The translations under genes were made by a program, and so were the position numbers. Of a stretch of DNA of 64,000 bases, positions 1,129 through 39,146 are shown in pieces. The DNA is taken from the NCBI GenBank assembly GCA_026396835.1, contig JAPLWA010000004.1:310001-374000 (forward strand), given 5' to 3'. The notes under the pieces are model-generated. The model saw only the letters and a program-made list of their open reading frames with translations. It was not told where the DNA came from and did no database searches. The DNA is from Candidatus Falkowbacteria bacterium. Lineage in GTDB: Bacteria > Patescibacteriota > Patescibacteriia > Patescibacteriales > Patescibacteriaceae. How positions within the stretch are numbered: position 1 is the first letter of the stretch; each line of letters starts with the position of its first letter.

Positions 1129-2109
1129 ATGGCATCTTTATTTAGAGAAGATTTACCCGTATGTACTCCTAAAAACCTCAGACAAGTTGCCGAAAAACTT
1201 GAATTAGATTCTGGCTATCTAGCTTTGGCATCATATCCAGAGCTTGTTGAAGTAAGAAATATTTTTAATCGTTGGTACTTGGAAATAAAAGATTTTTTAG
1301 ATAAGCAATATATTAAATTTATACAAAAAGATTTTCACAGTAGATCATGGGAACTTTTTTGTGGGAAATTATTAAATACTAACTTTGGCTTAAAAACAAA
1401 AAAATCACAAATCGGGACGCCAGATTTCCTCATAGGTATTAATAGTACACCGGCCTGGATTGAATCAATGGCCCCAGAAAATGCAACCAATGCAAATAAA
1501 ATTCTACTTTTGCGTGATCAATTTAATACTGCTAATTCAGGAACAATGATATCAGGTGGCGGTCCTATAAATGAACTTGCTGATCCGGTTGTCTTTAGAA
1601 TCAAAAGTAAGATTCTTGATAAATATAAGTCATTCTTCACAACCTATTTAAATTTTGGAGTTAAAAAGAGTGATTTTTATATAATAGCTTTAAACATTCA
1701 TTCTTTTGATGACGGATTTTTAGATGAAAGGATATTCAGACAAATATTTTTTGGGCAAGGTAATAACATTGTTTTCCCCGGAGATAAAAAGAATATTACT
1801 AATAATACTAAATATGTTGAAAATAGGGCAACCGCAACTAATTTAGAGGGTAAAAATATTTCGGTAGGTATCTTCTTAGATGATAGATTTAAGTACTTAA
1901 GCGGTGTTTTAATCACTTCTAATGATGTGTTTAACCTTGCGATTAAAAAAGATATTGGCTCTAGCTTATTTTTTATTCATAACTGCAATGCCCAAAATAA
2001 AATTCCTTTAAATATTTTTTCTTTTTGTTCTCAAATAAATTATCATATAGAAAGCGGGGAAACAAAAACAACTCAACCATTCTCGATATCTAAGGTTGAG
2101 CGTGATTAA
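1129..2109 (+). CDS. Hypothetical protein with PD-(D/E)XK-like nuclease signature
   Basis: The protein has 326 residues and no family that I recognise. Residues 70-115 look like a restriction-endonuclease fold: a Glu in SWELFCG, then GTPDFLIG, then AWIESMAP. This resembles the E...PD...(E/D)x pattern of uncharacterised PD-(D/E)XK proteins, but the usual Lys after the acidic residue is replaced by Ser, so activity is uncertain. The gene starts about 90 bp after the Mrr-like gene on the same strand and ends before two minus-strand genes. Two neighbouring nuclease-fold proteins suggest a defence or element-competition module; that is inference. Confidence 0.55.
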   Translation: MASLFREDLPVCTPKNLRQVAEKLELDSGYLALASYPELVEVRNIFNRWYLEIKDFLDKQYIKFIQKDFHSRSWELFCGKLLNTNFGLKTKKSQIGTPDFLIGINSTPAWIESMAPENATNANKILLLRDQFNTANSGTMISGGGPINELADPVVFRIKSKILDKYKSFFTTYLNFGVKKSDFYIIALNIHSFDDGFLDERIFRQIFFGQGNNIVFPGDKKNITNNTKYVENRATATNLEGKNISVGIFLDDRFKYLSGVLITSNDVFNLAIKKDIGSSLFFIHNCNAQNKIPLNIFSFCSQINYHIESGETKTTQPFSISKVERD

Positions 2110-34408: not shown

Positions 34409-34993
34409 TTATTTACATTTACCCCAAAGGCCTAATTTATTTGCTTTTGCTTCTTTTTCTATTTCCTTAAATAGACTAGCTTTAGCTGTGTCAGGCTCGA
34501 AGGGCGCCGCAATGGCAAAACCATTTTTAACTAATTCCATATTTACAAAGGTTCCGTCTTCTAAATAAACATAACCAAGTAAACGACCGAATTTATCACG
34601 CTCCGAAATATCTTTTTCAATTCTAATTTTTTTACCTTCAACTAAACGCTGATTTTCGTTAGCTGCTTCAAGGGAAAAACAATCAATCTTTTCGGTTTTA
34701 TTAAGCTCAGGAGCATCGACGCCGATATAACGTAATTTGTCATTATTTTCTAAGATAACAGTTTCACCATCAAGCACCTTGGCAACCCTTATAAAGCTTC
34801 CATATTGATAGGGTTGATCTTGAATCGTGGTATTTATTTTATCAGAAACTAGTCCCACTAAAGATAATGCCTTTTTACCTAAGTCTGATAAAGCCAGGGG
34901 TTTTTGCTTAAAAATAAAAATTACAACTATTACAGCAATAATTCCTAAAACAATAAGGGATCCGATGAATTTTAGTAATCTAAAATGTAGCAT
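34409..34993 (-). CDS. Secreted or anchored thermonuclease (SNase) family protein
   Basis: The protein has 194 residues. An N-terminal helix (LIVLGIIAVIVVIFIF) anchors or exports it. The SNase domain runs from about residue 68: RVAKVLDGETVILENNDKLRYIGVDAPEL, RLVEGKKIRIEKDISERDKFGRLLGYVYLEDGTFVNMELVKNGFA and KANKLGLWG. The catalytic Arg-Glu-Arg set looks intact (LRYIG, ERDKFGRLL). It may cut environmental DNA for nucleotide scavenging. A TATAAT box lies 5 bp before the ATG, so its mRNA is probably leaderless. Confidence 0.88.
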   Translation of the reverse strand: MLHFRLLKFIGSLIVLGIIAVIVVIFIFKQKPLALSDLGKKALSLVGLVSDKINTTIQDQPYQYGSFIRVAKVLDGETVILENNDKLRYIGVDAPELNKTEKIDCFSLEAANENQRLVEGKKIRIEKDISERDKFGRLLGYVYLEDGTFVNMELVKNGFAIAAPFEPDTAKASLFKEIEKEAKANKLGLWGKCK

Positions 34994-35023
34994 ATCTAAT
35001 TATATTGTCACTTTTTAAAGCGA

Positions 35024-35052
35024 TTGACAATAGCTATAAAAGCGAATAATAT
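35024..35052 (+). promoter_or_regulatory. Consensus promoter of an orphan RNA
   Basis: TTGACA (35024-35029) and TAATAT (35047-35052) are spaced 17 bp apart. The -35 box overlaps an inverted TTGTCA on the minus strand that may serve the divergent thermonuclease gene. The predicted start is near 35059. Confidence 0.85.
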
Positions 35053-35058
35053 CAAAAT

Positions 35059-35352
35059 ATTAGTTTAGTATTGTTCTTTCGAACCTTCCACAGGTCGGTG
35101 ATTTCTAGGGGTCACTTATCGAATAAGCTTTATTCTTTGTTTTGAAAAATGGGGTTAAGTAAAGGGATCAGGGCAAATCATCCATTAAAGCTACCTAGAA
35201 TAACAATTTTTTGCAGGAAGAATCTCTTCGGAGTGTAAACTGCTTGTTTGCCGGGAAACATCTAGGCTTATAAACACGTTACTTTAACTACGGTTATACG
35301 TGGATACGAATTGTTATTAAAGCGTCAGACAAACATCATCTGGCGCTTTTTT
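35059..35352 (+). ncRNA. Unidentified stand-alone structured RNA, about 294 nt
   Basis: A consensus promoter at 35024-35052 and a terminator at 35319-35352 bound a segment with no plausible gene on either strand. The 3' half folds as one domain: AATAACAATT (35199-35208) pairs perfectly with AATTGTTATT (35309-35318), right next to the terminator stem. Inside are GAAGA-ATC-TCTTC, enclosed by GCAG/CTGC, and TGTTT/AAACA. The 5' half has GAATAA/TTATTC and an overlapping CTTAT/ATAAG. It lacks the tmRNA tag and T arm, the RNase P core and the SRP GGAAG motif. A new RNA class is possible. Confidence 0.65.
35319..35352 (+). terminator. Terminator of the orphan RNA
   Basis: AAAGCGTCAGA (35319-35329) pairs with TCTGGCGCTTT (35339-35349) through 11 bp with one G-U, followed by T residues. 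It lies just before the convergent tgt stop. Confidence 0.88.
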
Positions 35353-35363
35353 ATTTATTCAAA

Positions 35364-36509
35364 CTAAATCGATTTTCTTATCTCAGTCATTAAGTCAAGA
35401 TAGAATTCTAAATTATTTAAAGTTGCCAATCTCTTGCCTAAAGGTTCATTTATTTGAAATAGATAATGCAAATAAGCTAAAGATAATTTACGTAATTCAG
35501 GAATCTTGGAATTTTTATTTATTAAATTTTTATCATTAGCATATTTAGCGTTGGTGATCGTAATTGTTTTATAAAAATCTTTTGTCGCTACTTTCTTAGA
35601 AGCTAGAAGTTGTTTAATTTTTTTACTAGTATCTTTATCAAAAGAAAATAGTCTACCGTGGCGCCCTTCACGAGTTGGAATAACACAATCAAACATATCA
35701 ACTCCCCTCTTAACGGCTTCAATAATATTTTCTGGATAACCAACACCCATCAAATATCTAGGTTTATCCTTTGGTAAAGCATCGGTTAAGTAATCAAGGA
35801 CTTTATACATCTCGTCATTAGTTTCACCAACCGCTAAACCGCCAATATTATAACCATCGAATTTAAGCGCGCTTAATTCAGCTGCACTTTTTAAACGCAA
35901 ATCTTTCTCAGTACCACCCTGAACAACCGCAAAAATCAATGGTTTATTATTTTTAATCTTTTTTGAGTAAATTTTTGTGCGTTTGGCCCACTCAGTTGTT
36001 AAATCGACTGAATGTTCTAAATATTTTCGTTTAGCAGGTAAGGCCACGCATTCGTCTAAGACAACGGCGATATCAACACCTAAGTCAGCTTGAATCTGCA
36101 AAGATCTTTCAGGAGTTAAATAATGCTTTGAGCCATCAATATATGAAGAAAATTTAACACCCTGTTTACTTAATTCAACTAAGCTTTTACCGCTTTTAGT
36201 TCTATCAGCAGCTAATGAGAAAATTTGAAAACCACCGGAGTCTGTCAGAATAGCACCATCCCAATTCATGAATTTATGCAAACCACCAAACTTTTTAACA
36301 TACTTTTCACCAGGTCTCAACATTAAATGATAGGTATTAGACAAAAGAATTGGTGAACCAAGTTCACGAACATCATGAGTTGAAGCAAACTTAATTGTCG
36401 CCTGTGTTGCCACCGGCATAAAAAAAGGCGTTTCCAAACTGCCGTGGCGAGTTTTTAAACTACCACGGCGGGCTAGATTATATTTATTTGTTTTCTTCAA
36501 TATGAACAT
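35364..36509 (-). CDS. tgt: tRNA-guanine transglycosylase lacking the zinc ligands
   Basis: The protein has 381 residues. The TIM-barrel and catalytic marks of bacterial Tgt are kept: LSNTYHLMLRPG, ILTDSGGFQIFSLA, AVVQGGTEKDLR, IGGLAVGETNDEM, YLMGVGYPENI, and FDCVIPTREGRHGRLF with the nucleophile Asp. The C-terminal zinc site (normally CxCxxC plus a His) reads NSKIPELRKL and TLNNL, so all four ligands are lost. An insertion of about 18 residues precedes this part. It would place queuine or preQ1 in tRNA, if it still folds without zinc. Two orphan RNAs flank it. Confidence 0.93.
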   Translation of the reverse strand: MFILKKTNKYNLARRGSLKTRHGSLETPFFMPVATQATIKFASTHDVRELGSPILLSNTYHLMLRPGEKYVKKFGGLHKFMNWDGAILTDSGGFQIFSLAADRTKSGKSLVELSKQGVKFSSYIDGSKHYLTPERSLQIQADLGVDIAVVLDECVALPAKRKYLEHSVDLTTEWAKRTKIYSKKIKNNKPLIFAVVQGGTEKDLRLKSAAELSALKFDGYNIGGLAVGETNDEMYKVLDYLTDALPKDKPRYLMGVGYPENIIEAVKRGVDMFDCVIPTREGRHGRLFSFDKDTSKKIKQLLASKKVATKDFYKTITITNAKYANDKNLINKNSKIPELRKLSLAYLHYLFQINEPLGKRLATLNNLEFYLDLMTEIRKSI

Positions 36510-36620
36510 CTTTTATTTATGATTCTTTTAACCTTTTTAGGGGGGGGTCTTTATCTATAAACTGTGGAAAAAGAGCCTAATGCCACTATTTTGTGCTAAT
36601 TTTATGCTAATATTAAACGA

Positions 36621-36649
36621 TTGACTTTTCACTAAAAACAGTATATAAT
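36621..36649 (+). promoter_or_regulatory. Near-consensus promoter of a small RNA
   Basis: TTGACT (36621-36626) and TATAAT (36644-36649) are spaced 17 bp apart. The predicted start is near 36656, at the first base pairs of the RNA's closing stem. Confidence 0.88.
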
Positions 36650-36655
36650 AATAAT

Positions 36656-36745
36656 GTGTTCATGAAGCGAAAGCTTTATTCAGCTAAGGAATCTCCAATG
36701 CTGAAAATGAGCACATAAAAGAACCGCTTACAAAGCGGTTTTTTT
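36656..36745 (+). ncRNA. Unidentified small RNA with three-way junction, about 90 nt
   Basis: Promoter and terminator frame a compact RNA. P1 is TGTGTTCAT/ATGAGCACA (36655-36663/36707-36715, one G-U). Inside are P2, AAGC-GAAA-GCTT (36665-36676, GNRA tetraloop), and P3, TTCAGC/GCTGAA (36679-36684/36700-36705), with a 15-base loop holding AAGGAATCTCC. The terminator AACCGCTT-ACA-AAGCGGTT and seven T residues follow. No reading frame uses it. The fold resembles a riboswitch aptamer, but no gene lies downstream on this strand, so it is probably a trans-acting RNA. I know no matching family. Confidence 0.7.
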
Positions 36746-37156
36746 ATTTTTTTCATAAACGCTGTTCTTTTCTCGAGCCTTCATAATACTATAAAAAGTT
36801 ATCTCACCATCTCCTATTTTTCGCAAAACTACTGTAACTATTGGACTATTATTCCCTACACTTGCCTTTAACCCCCAAAACTTTGCGTACTTTCCTTCTT
36901 GCTTCAAATATCTCTCTTCGTATTTAAAAATACTAACAGCTTTCTTAATCACAGGAACTGCCAATGGCAATAAATTTAATCTATATATCTGCTCTTTCTT
37001 CAATCTCTCATGGCCCGCCCCATTGTATCTAAGATGATAAAAGCCCTTAGAATTAAAGTTAACCATCGCCTGAAGAACTTGACAAAATACTGGTCTTAAA
37101 GTTTTGTAGTAAGCCCTTCTTTCTTGGATGAATTCTTTGTGTGTATCTAGCGACAT
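36728..37156 (-). CDS. Hypothetical basic protein
   Basis: The protein has 142 residues, rich in Lys, Arg and Tyr. It starts MSLDTHKEFIQERRAYYKTLRPVFCQVLQA; residues 75-130 are beta-rich (AKFWGLKASVGNNSPIVTVVLRKIGDGEITFYSIMKAR). The second half could be a small nuclease or toxin-like fold of the YafQ/BrnT sort, but no motif proves this. Its stop codon lies inside the terminator of the convergent small RNA at 36656-36745. It stands alone. Confidence 0.5.
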   Translation of the reverse strand: MSLDTHKEFIQERRAYYKTLRPVFCQVLQAMVNFNSKGFYHLRYNGAGHERLKKEQIYRLNLLPLAVPVIKKAVSIFKYEERYLKQEGKYAKFWGLKASVGNNSPIVTVVLRKIGDGEITFYSIMKAREKNSVYEKNKKTAL

Positions 37157-37199
37157 GCAATTATGCTAACAAATAAATAATAGAATTACAACATTAAAA

Positions 37200-39146
37200 C
37201 TATTGCACAATTCCATCAGTTTCAGCAATATCATCTTTTTCTAACTTAGTTGTTTGTGCTTTTAAGATTTGAGAAATTGGAAAACTAGTTGTATTATCAG
37301 TGCCCGTTAAGGTGGTTCCAGAAACCAAAACTAATAACTTGTTTCGATCAGTCGCCCTTGGCTTTATAGAAATACTAAATTGACCTTGAGTGTGAGCAGC
37401 TGACAAAGGCAATCGACCGATATCCCAGGTAACTTCATTAGTATCTTGGTTATAGCTCAGAGTTCCAACATCAGCTTGATCCTTACCGTCCCAAGCAACG
37501 TAGTCAGGCAATTTTGTTTTAATTTTAATATCTCCGAGCTCGTGCAAGGAATTTGAAAGATTCCAATAAATCTTAAAGGTTGAAGTCTGACCAACCTGCG
37601 GCGGCAAAGGTCCGGTTCCGACAGCAATATTATCTTGATCAAAATAGCGAACCGCTTCATCAAGTTTAGTGTCACTGTTTAATTTAATAGTTAACTGATT
37701 AGAGCGATTAACCTCATTAGTTTGCGAAAGTTCTTCAGCCTTACCACTGACAGCAAATTGAGCATAACTTTTAATTTCATAAGTTCTAATTAGGCCAGCT
37801 TCAGATACATCTCGCACAGGAATTGAGAAATCAATACTTCCGGTTTGATCCTTGGCTAAAGATTTTAATTCTGGAATTTGATCTTTAGTCCAAGTGATAG
37901 TTCTACCAGTGACACTACCATCATTTTTATCAAGCAATTTTCGCCAATCAAGCGCTTCGCCATCCAAGACCGCCATAATAATAACATCGTCCATTACTTT
38001 TTCTCCCTTATTAACATATGAAATTGAATAATTAATCGTTTGACCAAAATCAATACCTTGATCAGACGGTTGGCCATTAGCAACAACGGTTAAGTTAAGA
38101 GAATTTTTAACAACTTCAACCGTGAAAGATTTTTCATCAAAAGAATAAGCTTTCTCTGAACCTGTCGGCTGATATTCAAAATTAACCTTAAAATCTTCAG
38201 TGTCATTTTTCTTATCAGTAAACTTAAATTTGATGCGTAGCTCCTGATCAGTGTTGGTTAAATTACTGATTGCATAAACTCCAGGACTAACAACTGTGAC
38301 ATCCTTGCCATAATCAGCTGTTGGGAAACTAAGATTATCTAATGCAGGGAAACGAATATTAAAATGGTCCAAGAAGTTAGTATCAGTTGTCTTAAACTTA
38401 ACCAGCAATTCAGAATCTTGCCCAACCATTATACTAGTAGGAACCACGGCGCTTAAATCTAAACCAGATCCGGCTAAAACAGTATCCAAGCTGGTTGATT
38501 TCTTAAACTCGCTACTAATATTTATTGGCTTATAAGTTAAATCAGCAAACATTACGTTAGAAGAACCTGTCGGAGATATTAAGCGTCCCTTAATTTTTAC
38601 TTGGCCACTAGAAAATTGACGCAAATCTTCTAAGCTCCACTTATTGTTATCATTGCTTGCAGTTGGAAAACTTGATTCAAAAATAAAGTTATCGGGATAA
38701 ACCACGGCTAATTCAAGATTGCCTAGTGCAACTTTATCTTTATTTTGATAATCAATCACATACTCAAATTCCTGATTAGCAATTAATTTTTCTGGGGCAG
38801 AAATTTTAAGATCTACTGAAGTTGAATCTGCATTACGACTAATAAACCAATAATAAGCTCCGGCTGTTATGGCTGCCACTATCAATACATAAATCAAAAT
38901 AATACCCAAACGAACAAAAAATCCCTTCTTGGGCTGGATATCAACTTGTTTAACGTTAATTCTTTTGCCTCCATCATCTTGATAAATTTCCGAAAGACTT
39001 TCATCTATCGTGCCTTCATCCAAGCCTTTTTTTAAATAACGATCAAAACGTTTAGATTGATTGTCGGTCGGCAAATCACGTGCTACAAACTGAGCGACTT
39101 GCGAAGGTTCACGTTTAACATTACTGTTCGTTTTATTTTTTGGCAT
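37200..39146 (-). CDS. Anchored surface protein with DUF11/Ig-like repeats
   Basis: The protein has 648 residues. A charged cytoplasmic part of about 70 residues (QVAQFVARDLPTDNQSKRFDRYLKKG) precedes one membrane helix (LGIILIYVLIVAAITAGAYYWF). The outside is a series of beta-sandwich repeats of the DUF11 or COG1361 kind, each with a phrase such as FEYVIDYQNKDKVALGNLELAVVYPDNFIF, INYSISYVNKGEKVMDDVIIMAVLDG or FKIYWNLSNSLHELGDIKIKTKLPDYV. It is probably a cell-surface scaffold or adhesin. It ends an operon with the DUF4012 and GT4 genes. Confidence 0.7.
   Translation of the reverse strand: MPKNKTNSNVKREPSQVAQFVARDLPTDNQSKRFDRYLKKGLDEGTIDESLSEIYQDDGGKRINVKQVDIQPKKGFFVRLGIILIYVLIVAAITAGAYYWFISRNADSTSVDLKISAPEKLIANQEFEYVIDYQNKDKVALGNLELAVVYPDNFIFESSFPTASNDNNKWSLEDLRQFSSGQVKIKGRLISPTGSSNVMFADLTYKPINISSEFKKSTSLDTVLAGSGLDLSAVVPTSIMVGQDSELLVKFKTTDTNFLDHFNIRFPALDNLSFPTADYGKDVTVVSPGVYAISNLTNTDQELRIKFKFTDKKNDTEDFKVNFEYQPTGSEKAYSFDEKSFTVEVVKNSLNLTVVANGQPSDQGIDFGQTINYSISYVNKGEKVMDDVIIMAVLDGEALDWRKLLDKNDGSVTGRTITWTKDQIPELKSLAKDQTGSIDFSIPVRDVSEAGLIRTYEIKSYAQFAVSGKAEELSQTNEVNRSNQLTIKLNSDTKLDEAVRYFDQDNIAVGTGPLPPQVGQTSTFKIYWNLSNSLHELGDIKIKTKLPDYVAWDGKDQADVGTLSYNQDTNEVTWDIGRLPLSAAHTQGQFSISIKPRATDRNKLLVLVSGTTLTGTDNTTSFPISQILKAQTTKLEKDDIAETDGIVQ

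Follow-up and report, generated by a model that had tools for sequence, protein, structure and literature searches.

A conserved structured RNA convergent with a small protein gene in Patescibacteria: a candidate RNA-antitoxin/toxin module

RESULTS

A small RNA and a convergent reading frame next to tgt

Between tgt and a gene for a 648-aa protein, the window (the whole stretch of 64,000 nucleotides analysed here, from a Candidatus Falkowbacteria genome) holds a predicted small RNA and, running against it from the opposite strand, a 142-aa open reading frame (ORF) (Table 1). The first-pass annotation of this DNA had described the RNA as a discrete unit with a promoter and a terminator of its own, and the promoter site, the fold and the predicted terminator are all consistent with such a unit. 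The promoter is the top-scoring site within 34500-38500 (4 kb), and the start of transcription is estimated at ~36656. From 36656 to 36746 the sequence folds at -38.0 kcal/mol, compared with -15.2 +/- 2.9 kcal/mol for shuffled sequences (z -7.9; none of 200 shuffles equaled it). The core without the terminator has a fold z of -5.2, and the strand opposite the RNA folds too, more weakly (z -3.3).

Table 1. Coordinates of the features of the locus within the window
Feature	Position	Strand	Details
Sigma-70-type promoter of the RNA	36621..36649	+	TTGACT (36621-36626), 17-nt spacer, TATAAT (36644-36649); 11/12 consensus matches
RNA core, three-way junction	36654..36716	+	Fold, covariation, match of leave-window-out model (36652-36717)
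P1	36654-36663 pairs 36707-36716	+	8 bp in fold, 10 counting 36654/36655
P2	36664-36668 pairs 36673-36677	+	5 bp, GAAA loop
P3	36679-36684 pairs 36700-36705	+	6 bp, apical GGA/UCC possible
Intrinsic terminator (predicted)	36715..36747	both	Terminator scanner; terminator-like sites on each strand
142-aa ORF, predicted partner of the RNA	36728..37156	-	Putative BECR/RelE-like RNase toxin, diverged member; tail-to-tail homologs
Segment with RNA and ORF, between tgt and the 648-aa gene	36510..37199		Absent from relatives' tgt loci

The three-way junction with its closing stem and the GNRA-capped hairpin of the earlier description were both recovered, and so was the 15-nt loop on P3; the loop had been called purine-rich, but only 8 of its 15 bases are purines, and a GGA/UCC pairing is possible within it. 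The absence of a downstream gene holds for the same strand, whereas the convergent ORF, whose stop codon (36728-36730) falls inside the terminator, had been overlooked. Since the terminator is predicted on both strands, it probably serves both the RNA and the convergent protein gene. The 1.05-Mb genome has one copy of the RNA, a single unit at which no repeat was found. None of the Rfam 15 covariance models matched the window at the gathering score, and the same search of 20 relatives' loci returned tRNA only. At relaxed thresholds the Rfam matches were all sub-threshold, barring a tRNA gene (locus L214) and a DUF3800-II RNA (locus L196, beside another protein).

The RNA belongs to a covarying family

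When the RNA was searched at the DNA level against 98 relatives, the best matches were to the terminator, and homologs were therefore sought through the convergent ORF instead. A contig scan with the single 142-aa ORF as the query found no relatives. Homologs of the ORF are present in 22 of 145 genomes, its own included, at 25-40% identity and with a patchy spread. In all 20 usable homologs (after exclusion of L052, L056 and L058, which are fragmentary or probably spurious), an RNA of the same plan lies on the opposite strand, 3' of the stop codon: a -10 box, a closing stem, a short capped hairpin, a second hairpin beginning CGG and the closing strand. The label "orphan RNA" given by the first-pass annotation consequently has to be withdrawn, since the RNA has a convergent protein partner in every one of these cases.

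In the alignment of the 21 sequences, 98.4% of the pair cells are standard and two-sided changes occur in 14 of the 18 pairs; none of 500 shuffles matched the observed pairing and covariation, and shifting the pairing partners by 1-3 columns lowered the pairing to 29-45%. A GTDB profile search yielded 80 loci, two of them with two RNA hits each. In the alignment of 80 sequences, 96.5% of the cells are paired, and two-sided changes extend to 15 of the 18 pairs. The earlier proposal had been made to depend on homologs with conserved pairing; such homologs exist, and covariation was found in all three helices (P1, P2 and P3). The P2 loop and the P3 apex are unconserved, the latter being variable in both length and sequence, and no guide-like variable segment is evident. 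A docking of the P2 GAAA tetraloop into a UAAG motif of P3 was considered and dropped because P2 loops and the P3 apex vary among relatives.

The paired columns of the 80 RNAs contain 122 G-U cells versus 23 A-C cells, an excess that identifies the modelled strand as the functional one. A promoter score of at least 9/12 was found just upstream of 65 of the 80 family RNAs, versus 20 of 400 random positions, and in 77 of 80 relatives a T run of at least five follows the core within 70 nt on its 3' side. Two covariance models were used: R1, built from the 21 sequences with the window RNA among them, and R2, built from the 80-hit alignment without the window sequence, its hits having been collected with R1. 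When R2 was run against the window, it recovered the RNA at 37.0 bits (E 5e-7), with the runner-up at 11.2 bits. The window RNA is a genuine, conserved structured RNA.

Almost all of the 80 GTDB loci are labelled as Patescibacteria groups or as unclassified; three carry the labels Dysgonamonadaceae, Bacteroidetes and Nitrospira, which may be binning errors. The RNA occurs in at least 45 of 380 genomes of the class (53 hits) and in at least 25 of 379 genomes sampled across the phylum, with one or two copies per surveyed genome. These genome counts are lower bounds, since R2 and the stricter filters of the surveys missed the window's own RNA. No relative was found in viral contigs, phage records or plasmid records.

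RNA and protein are paired, and their loss is asymmetric

The RNA was found on the opposite strand, just past the protein, in 78 of the 80 GTDB protein loci, 14 of whose contigs had also served to train the RNA model. Of the two misses, the L120 contig stops 25 bases after the stop codon, too early for a judgement, and at L137 no RNA was detectable beside the protein. A further locus, L213, showed none by eye. In the survey of 380 genomes of the class, the protein was recovered at 45 loci in 39 genomes, and the 40 RNA hits lying within 400 nt of a protein were convergent with it without exception (gaps of 11-201 nt). The co-occurrence of RNA and protein across these genomes is highly significant (Fisher p 2e-38). 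A partner of the RNA family is present at 43 of the 45 protein loci, counting as paired G000, where the RNA was detected with R1, and L198 and L199, where it was located directly. The two proteins without a family member (L196 and L197) are diverged and have a different, longer convergent structured RNA.

The opposite situation is more frequent, as 13 of the 53 RNA hits in the class survey have no protein. Altogether, 22 distinct solo RNA loci were collected, 13 from a survey of the order and 9 more from that of the class. Just past the terminator of five of these, C-terminal residues of the protein family remain in frame with a stop codon (for example, HSGNPDND and HEGDPETQ), and these five tails outscore all 2701 control stretches. 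Of the other tails, two stand at 0.0011 and three at 0.014-0.036; the sixth-ranked tail (L205) equals the top control. At least some solo RNAs are thus complete modules minus the protein, and protein loss is established for a minority of them, given that the tail is missing or weak in 15 of the 22. Solo RNAs reach model scores of up to 66.4 bits and have promoter-like sites by eye; one hit of 29.4 bits (L208) may be false. At L059 and L085 the protein looks frameshifted, and the RNA is still detected. The distances among RNAs and among proteins are correlated over 74 loci (Spearman 0.78; 0 of 999 permutations), which fits co-evolution and also simple co-inheritance.

Some solo loci have further features. 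By eye, the tail of the lost protein at L206 (FIGDPEVD) seems to continue the frame of a neighbouring gene, as if a deletion had fused that gene to the remnant. Several solo RNAs (L156, L162, L164, L166, L167 and L221) adjoin ORFs that, in our estimation, resemble Fic, RhuM, AbiE or MazF. At L221:1729-1847 (+), a transcript-like stretch contains a tandem of two different RNA units from the family; no protein of the family was recognised beside them, and they might be a double antidote.

Predicted structure of the convergent protein

Alignments A6 and A7 were made with relatives fetched through the motif FWS[VI][MI]P[FYA]W, so that conservation at the motif is biased there, and they omit L059, L068, L085 and L101 (frameshifted, short or without an ATG). 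In the 21-member protein alignment, made without the motif, S123 is invariant, and W122, P126 and W128 are nearly so. The window ORF retains F34, G38, H41, R51, Q56, F121 and S123, of which H41 and R51 correspond to an invariant His and Arg, whereas positions 26, 75, 77, 122, 126 and 128 deviate from the family. Because residues diverge at conserved positions and the ORF ends inside the terminator, it may be degenerate, and the window protein may be decaying.

The structure models of the window ORF and of a typical member (L090) have mean pLDDT values of 90.4 and 87.9, respectively, and both are predicted to begin with helices and to continue into a sheet of four long strands. Foldseek found no match in the PDB for either model at E <= 0.001. 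In a second structural comparison, three toxins head the ranking for the window ORF, nearly tied: 7vd7 (Z 5.2, rmsd 3.5 over 84), 6cp9 (Z 4.7, rmsd 4.4 over 98) and 3u97, BrnT (Z 4.1, rmsd 3.6 over 75), with the fourth row at Z 3.8. For L090, 6cp9, which we take to be a BECR tRNase, stands alone in front (Z 5.1, 4.2 over 99; next 3.0), and according to the note of the tool a Z near 5 may reflect a common arrangement. Among the rows listed for both models, other RNase toxins come first, at low Z, and neither ToxN-type proteins nor transposases appear. The models are weakly suggestive of a resemblance to BECR/RelE-type RNase toxins, at Z about 5. The Pfam domain LPD3 (PF18798) matches 10 of the 21 family members (best E 2.7e-7), and the window ORF reaches 13.8 bits against it, under the Pfam cut-off of 27. 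The protein had no match in NCBIfam or PHROGs and nothing convincing in PADLOC.

The tgt locus

The first-pass annotation had associated the RNA with tgt, and this link was rejected. Whereas tgt is present in 12 of the 13 genomes of the family, the segment carrying the RNA and the ORF has no match in the 11 relatives whose tgt 5' side could be compared, and 7 of these have tgt immediately after a homolog of the gene for the 648-aa protein. RNA and ORF together thus represent an insertion in the window genome, and on this genomic comparison the proximity to tgt is incidental. Elsewhere, the neighbours of the module are scattered: 60 neighbour proteins, scanned out of 153 selected ORFs and without a control set, fell into 88 Pfam families, one of them TGT, and no third conserved gene was found among the neighbours scanned.

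Across tgt, another RNA candidate lies at 35020-35360 (+), with a promoter-like TTGACA-17-TAATAT at 35024-35052, a strong fold and a terminator-like hairpin at its end. It had no near-threshold match in Rfam and no BLAST match in the relatives' tgt loci.

Other convergent RNAs at relatives' loci

A second kind of convergent RNA, some 80-95 nt in length, accompanies the diverged proteins of three loci (L196, 3' of ORF 595-1002; L197; and L214); its closing stem resembles TAGCGCTG...CAGCGCTA, and it contains a GGGAGACAGC motif. A third architecture was seen at L218, where a convergent RNA 3' of the ORF, with a closing stem AGCCCTG...CAGGGCT and several hairpins, adjoins an open frame of 195 residues. 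At L137:468-698 (-), counted relative to the ORF frame start, a convergent ORF, presumably HicB-like, stands in place of the RNA, and an ORF resembling an MNT nucleotidyltransferase lies behind it.

DISCUSSION

A candidate RNA-antitoxin/toxin module and its alternatives

We lean, with moderate confidence, toward the view that the RNA and its convergent protein constitute an RNA-antitoxin/toxin module of Patescibacteria, type-III-like in its mode of action but with a single-unit RNA in convergent orientation. The RNA also occurs without the protein, whereas the protein very rarely occurs without the RNA, and such an asymmetry is the signature of a toxin and its antitoxin.

An almost obligate pairing and a conserved fold would also suit a ribonucleoprotein whose RNA serves a non-toxin protein as the guide, scaffold or cofactor required for its activity, as in CRISPR/OMEGA systems. 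We consider this unlikely because a pure cofactor is expected to decay after its protein is lost, yet the solo RNAs keep high scores and, by eye, promoter-like sites, several of them next to remains of the protein gene; the variable segment expected of a guide is not evident either. Convergent genes with a common terminator region could alternatively point to a type-I-like antisense RNA that anneals to the toxin mRNA at its 3' end. However, in all 20 loci measured the RNA core sits beyond the stop codon, by 3 to 43 nt, so that the shared part is the self-complementary terminator only, and a covarying three-way junction would be unneeded for such pairing. The covarying fold, the promoter of its own and the lack of coding overlap instead favor a direct action on the protein, and antisense regulation appears distinctly improbable.

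The patchy distribution, the solo copies and the insertion at the tgt locus could be accommodated by a DNA-level mobility hairpin in the style of REP/RAYT or IS200/IS605, with the solo copies as non-autonomous elements. We give very little credence to this explanation: the excess of G-U over A-C cells indicates one strand acting as RNA, the promoter is conserved, genomes contain one or two copies, and the structural rows include no transposase. As for the suggestion in the first-pass annotation of an orphan riboswitch aptamer, which the three-way junction, the GNRA loop and the terminator after them had made attractive, it is scarcely tenable for an RNA that is followed by no gene on its strand, whose relatives are convergent with one protein family, whose P2 loop and P3 apex are unconserved, and for which no Rfam riboswitch reached threshold.

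Proposed mechanism

Under the toxin/antitoxin reading, the protein would be an endoribonuclease toxin of the BECR/RelE type, and the RNA, transcribed in vivo from its strong promoter, would bind and inhibit it directly, like the antitoxins of type III systems. The promoter on the opposite strand would let the RNA build up regardless of whether the toxin gene is transcribed. A halt in RNA synthesis, whether by phage take-over, stress or loss of the module, would set the toxic protein free to cut RNA. A solo RNA would then be an antidote kept once the toxin is gone, and the window copy, its protein lacking conserved residues, may be becoming such a solo RNA.

More tentatively, and with slightly less than even credence, we propose that a superfamily of convergent RNA-antitoxin/RNase-toxin modules exists in Patescibacteria. 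Each protein branch would have its own 3' structured RNA, sometimes of a wholly different architecture; RNA and toxin would co-evolve or swap partners, and solo RNAs would persist as antidotes.

These results turn an apparent orphan RNA into half of a two-gene module in organisms that are hard to culture and about whose conflict systems and small RNAs little has been learned. Should the RNA neutralise the protein, the module would be a toxin-antitoxin arrangement in which the RNA antitoxin is a single unit encoded convergently, and it would offer natural matched RNA/protein pairs for the study of RNase inhibition by RNA. A testable reading is also suggested for other RNAs that face a small protein tail-to-tail, the DUF3800 motifs among them.

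Comparison with known systems

No earlier description of the RNA-protein pair was found in searches of mostly non-subscription literature on Patescibacteria/CPR RNAs and toxins, LPD3, type III systems, orphan antitoxins and DUF3800; as far as could be checked, neither the RNA nor the protein has been named previously. Riboswitches differ in being part of the 5' UTR of a same-strand gene, whereas what comes after the window RNA is a terminator and an ORF that converges on it. Type I antitoxins are antisense to the coding region of the toxin, while the module RNA has its core outside it and only the terminator overlaps the window ORF.

The likeness to type III systems (ToxIN, CptIN and TenpIN) is that a structured noncoding RNA is proposed to hold an endoribonuclease directly. 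In these systems, a multi-repeat RNA antitoxin inhibits the toxin by assembling with it (PMC8860590). The module departs from them in that its RNA is a single unit instead of a repeat array and lies on the opposite strand at the 3' end of the protein gene, with its own terminator, instead of upstream on the toxin's strand. The predicted model of the module protein is also closer to the RelE/BrnT/CdiA toxins. Among the BECR-fold toxins, CdiA-CT of Klebsiella pneumoniae 342 (6cp9) and BrnT (3u97) are top structural neighbours, at low Z and with 11-16% identity to the module models; such toxins differ in being neutralised by proteins. The LPD3 matches connect the family to polyvalent proteins; in Helicobacter, such proteins contain LPD3 next to PBECR RNase domains (PMC5512222). 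In contrast, the module proteins stand alone and are paired with an RNA.

The DUF3800 motifs of Rfam (for example, RF02961, DUF3800-II), which reportedly go back to Weinberg and others in 2017, are alike in being small structured RNAs with a promoter-like site of their own, convergent at the 3' end of a small protein gene. They differ in the RNA, as no DUF3800 family is among the Rfam matches of the window RNA, and in the predicted fold of the protein. At locus L196, a DUF3800-II RNA (RF02961, 61.7 bits) at 1408-1477 (+) is convergent with an ORF at 1460-2035 (-) that starts with FIDESG and, as we assume, resembles DUF3800; this RNA and ORF adjoin a protein of the superfamily of the window ORF. 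DUF3800 is associated with putative noncoding RNAs and has an RNase H-like fold (PMC10910872). The function of the DUF3800 pairs is putative as well. The DUF3800-II RNA of L196 is the nearest arrangement to the module seen in this analysis.
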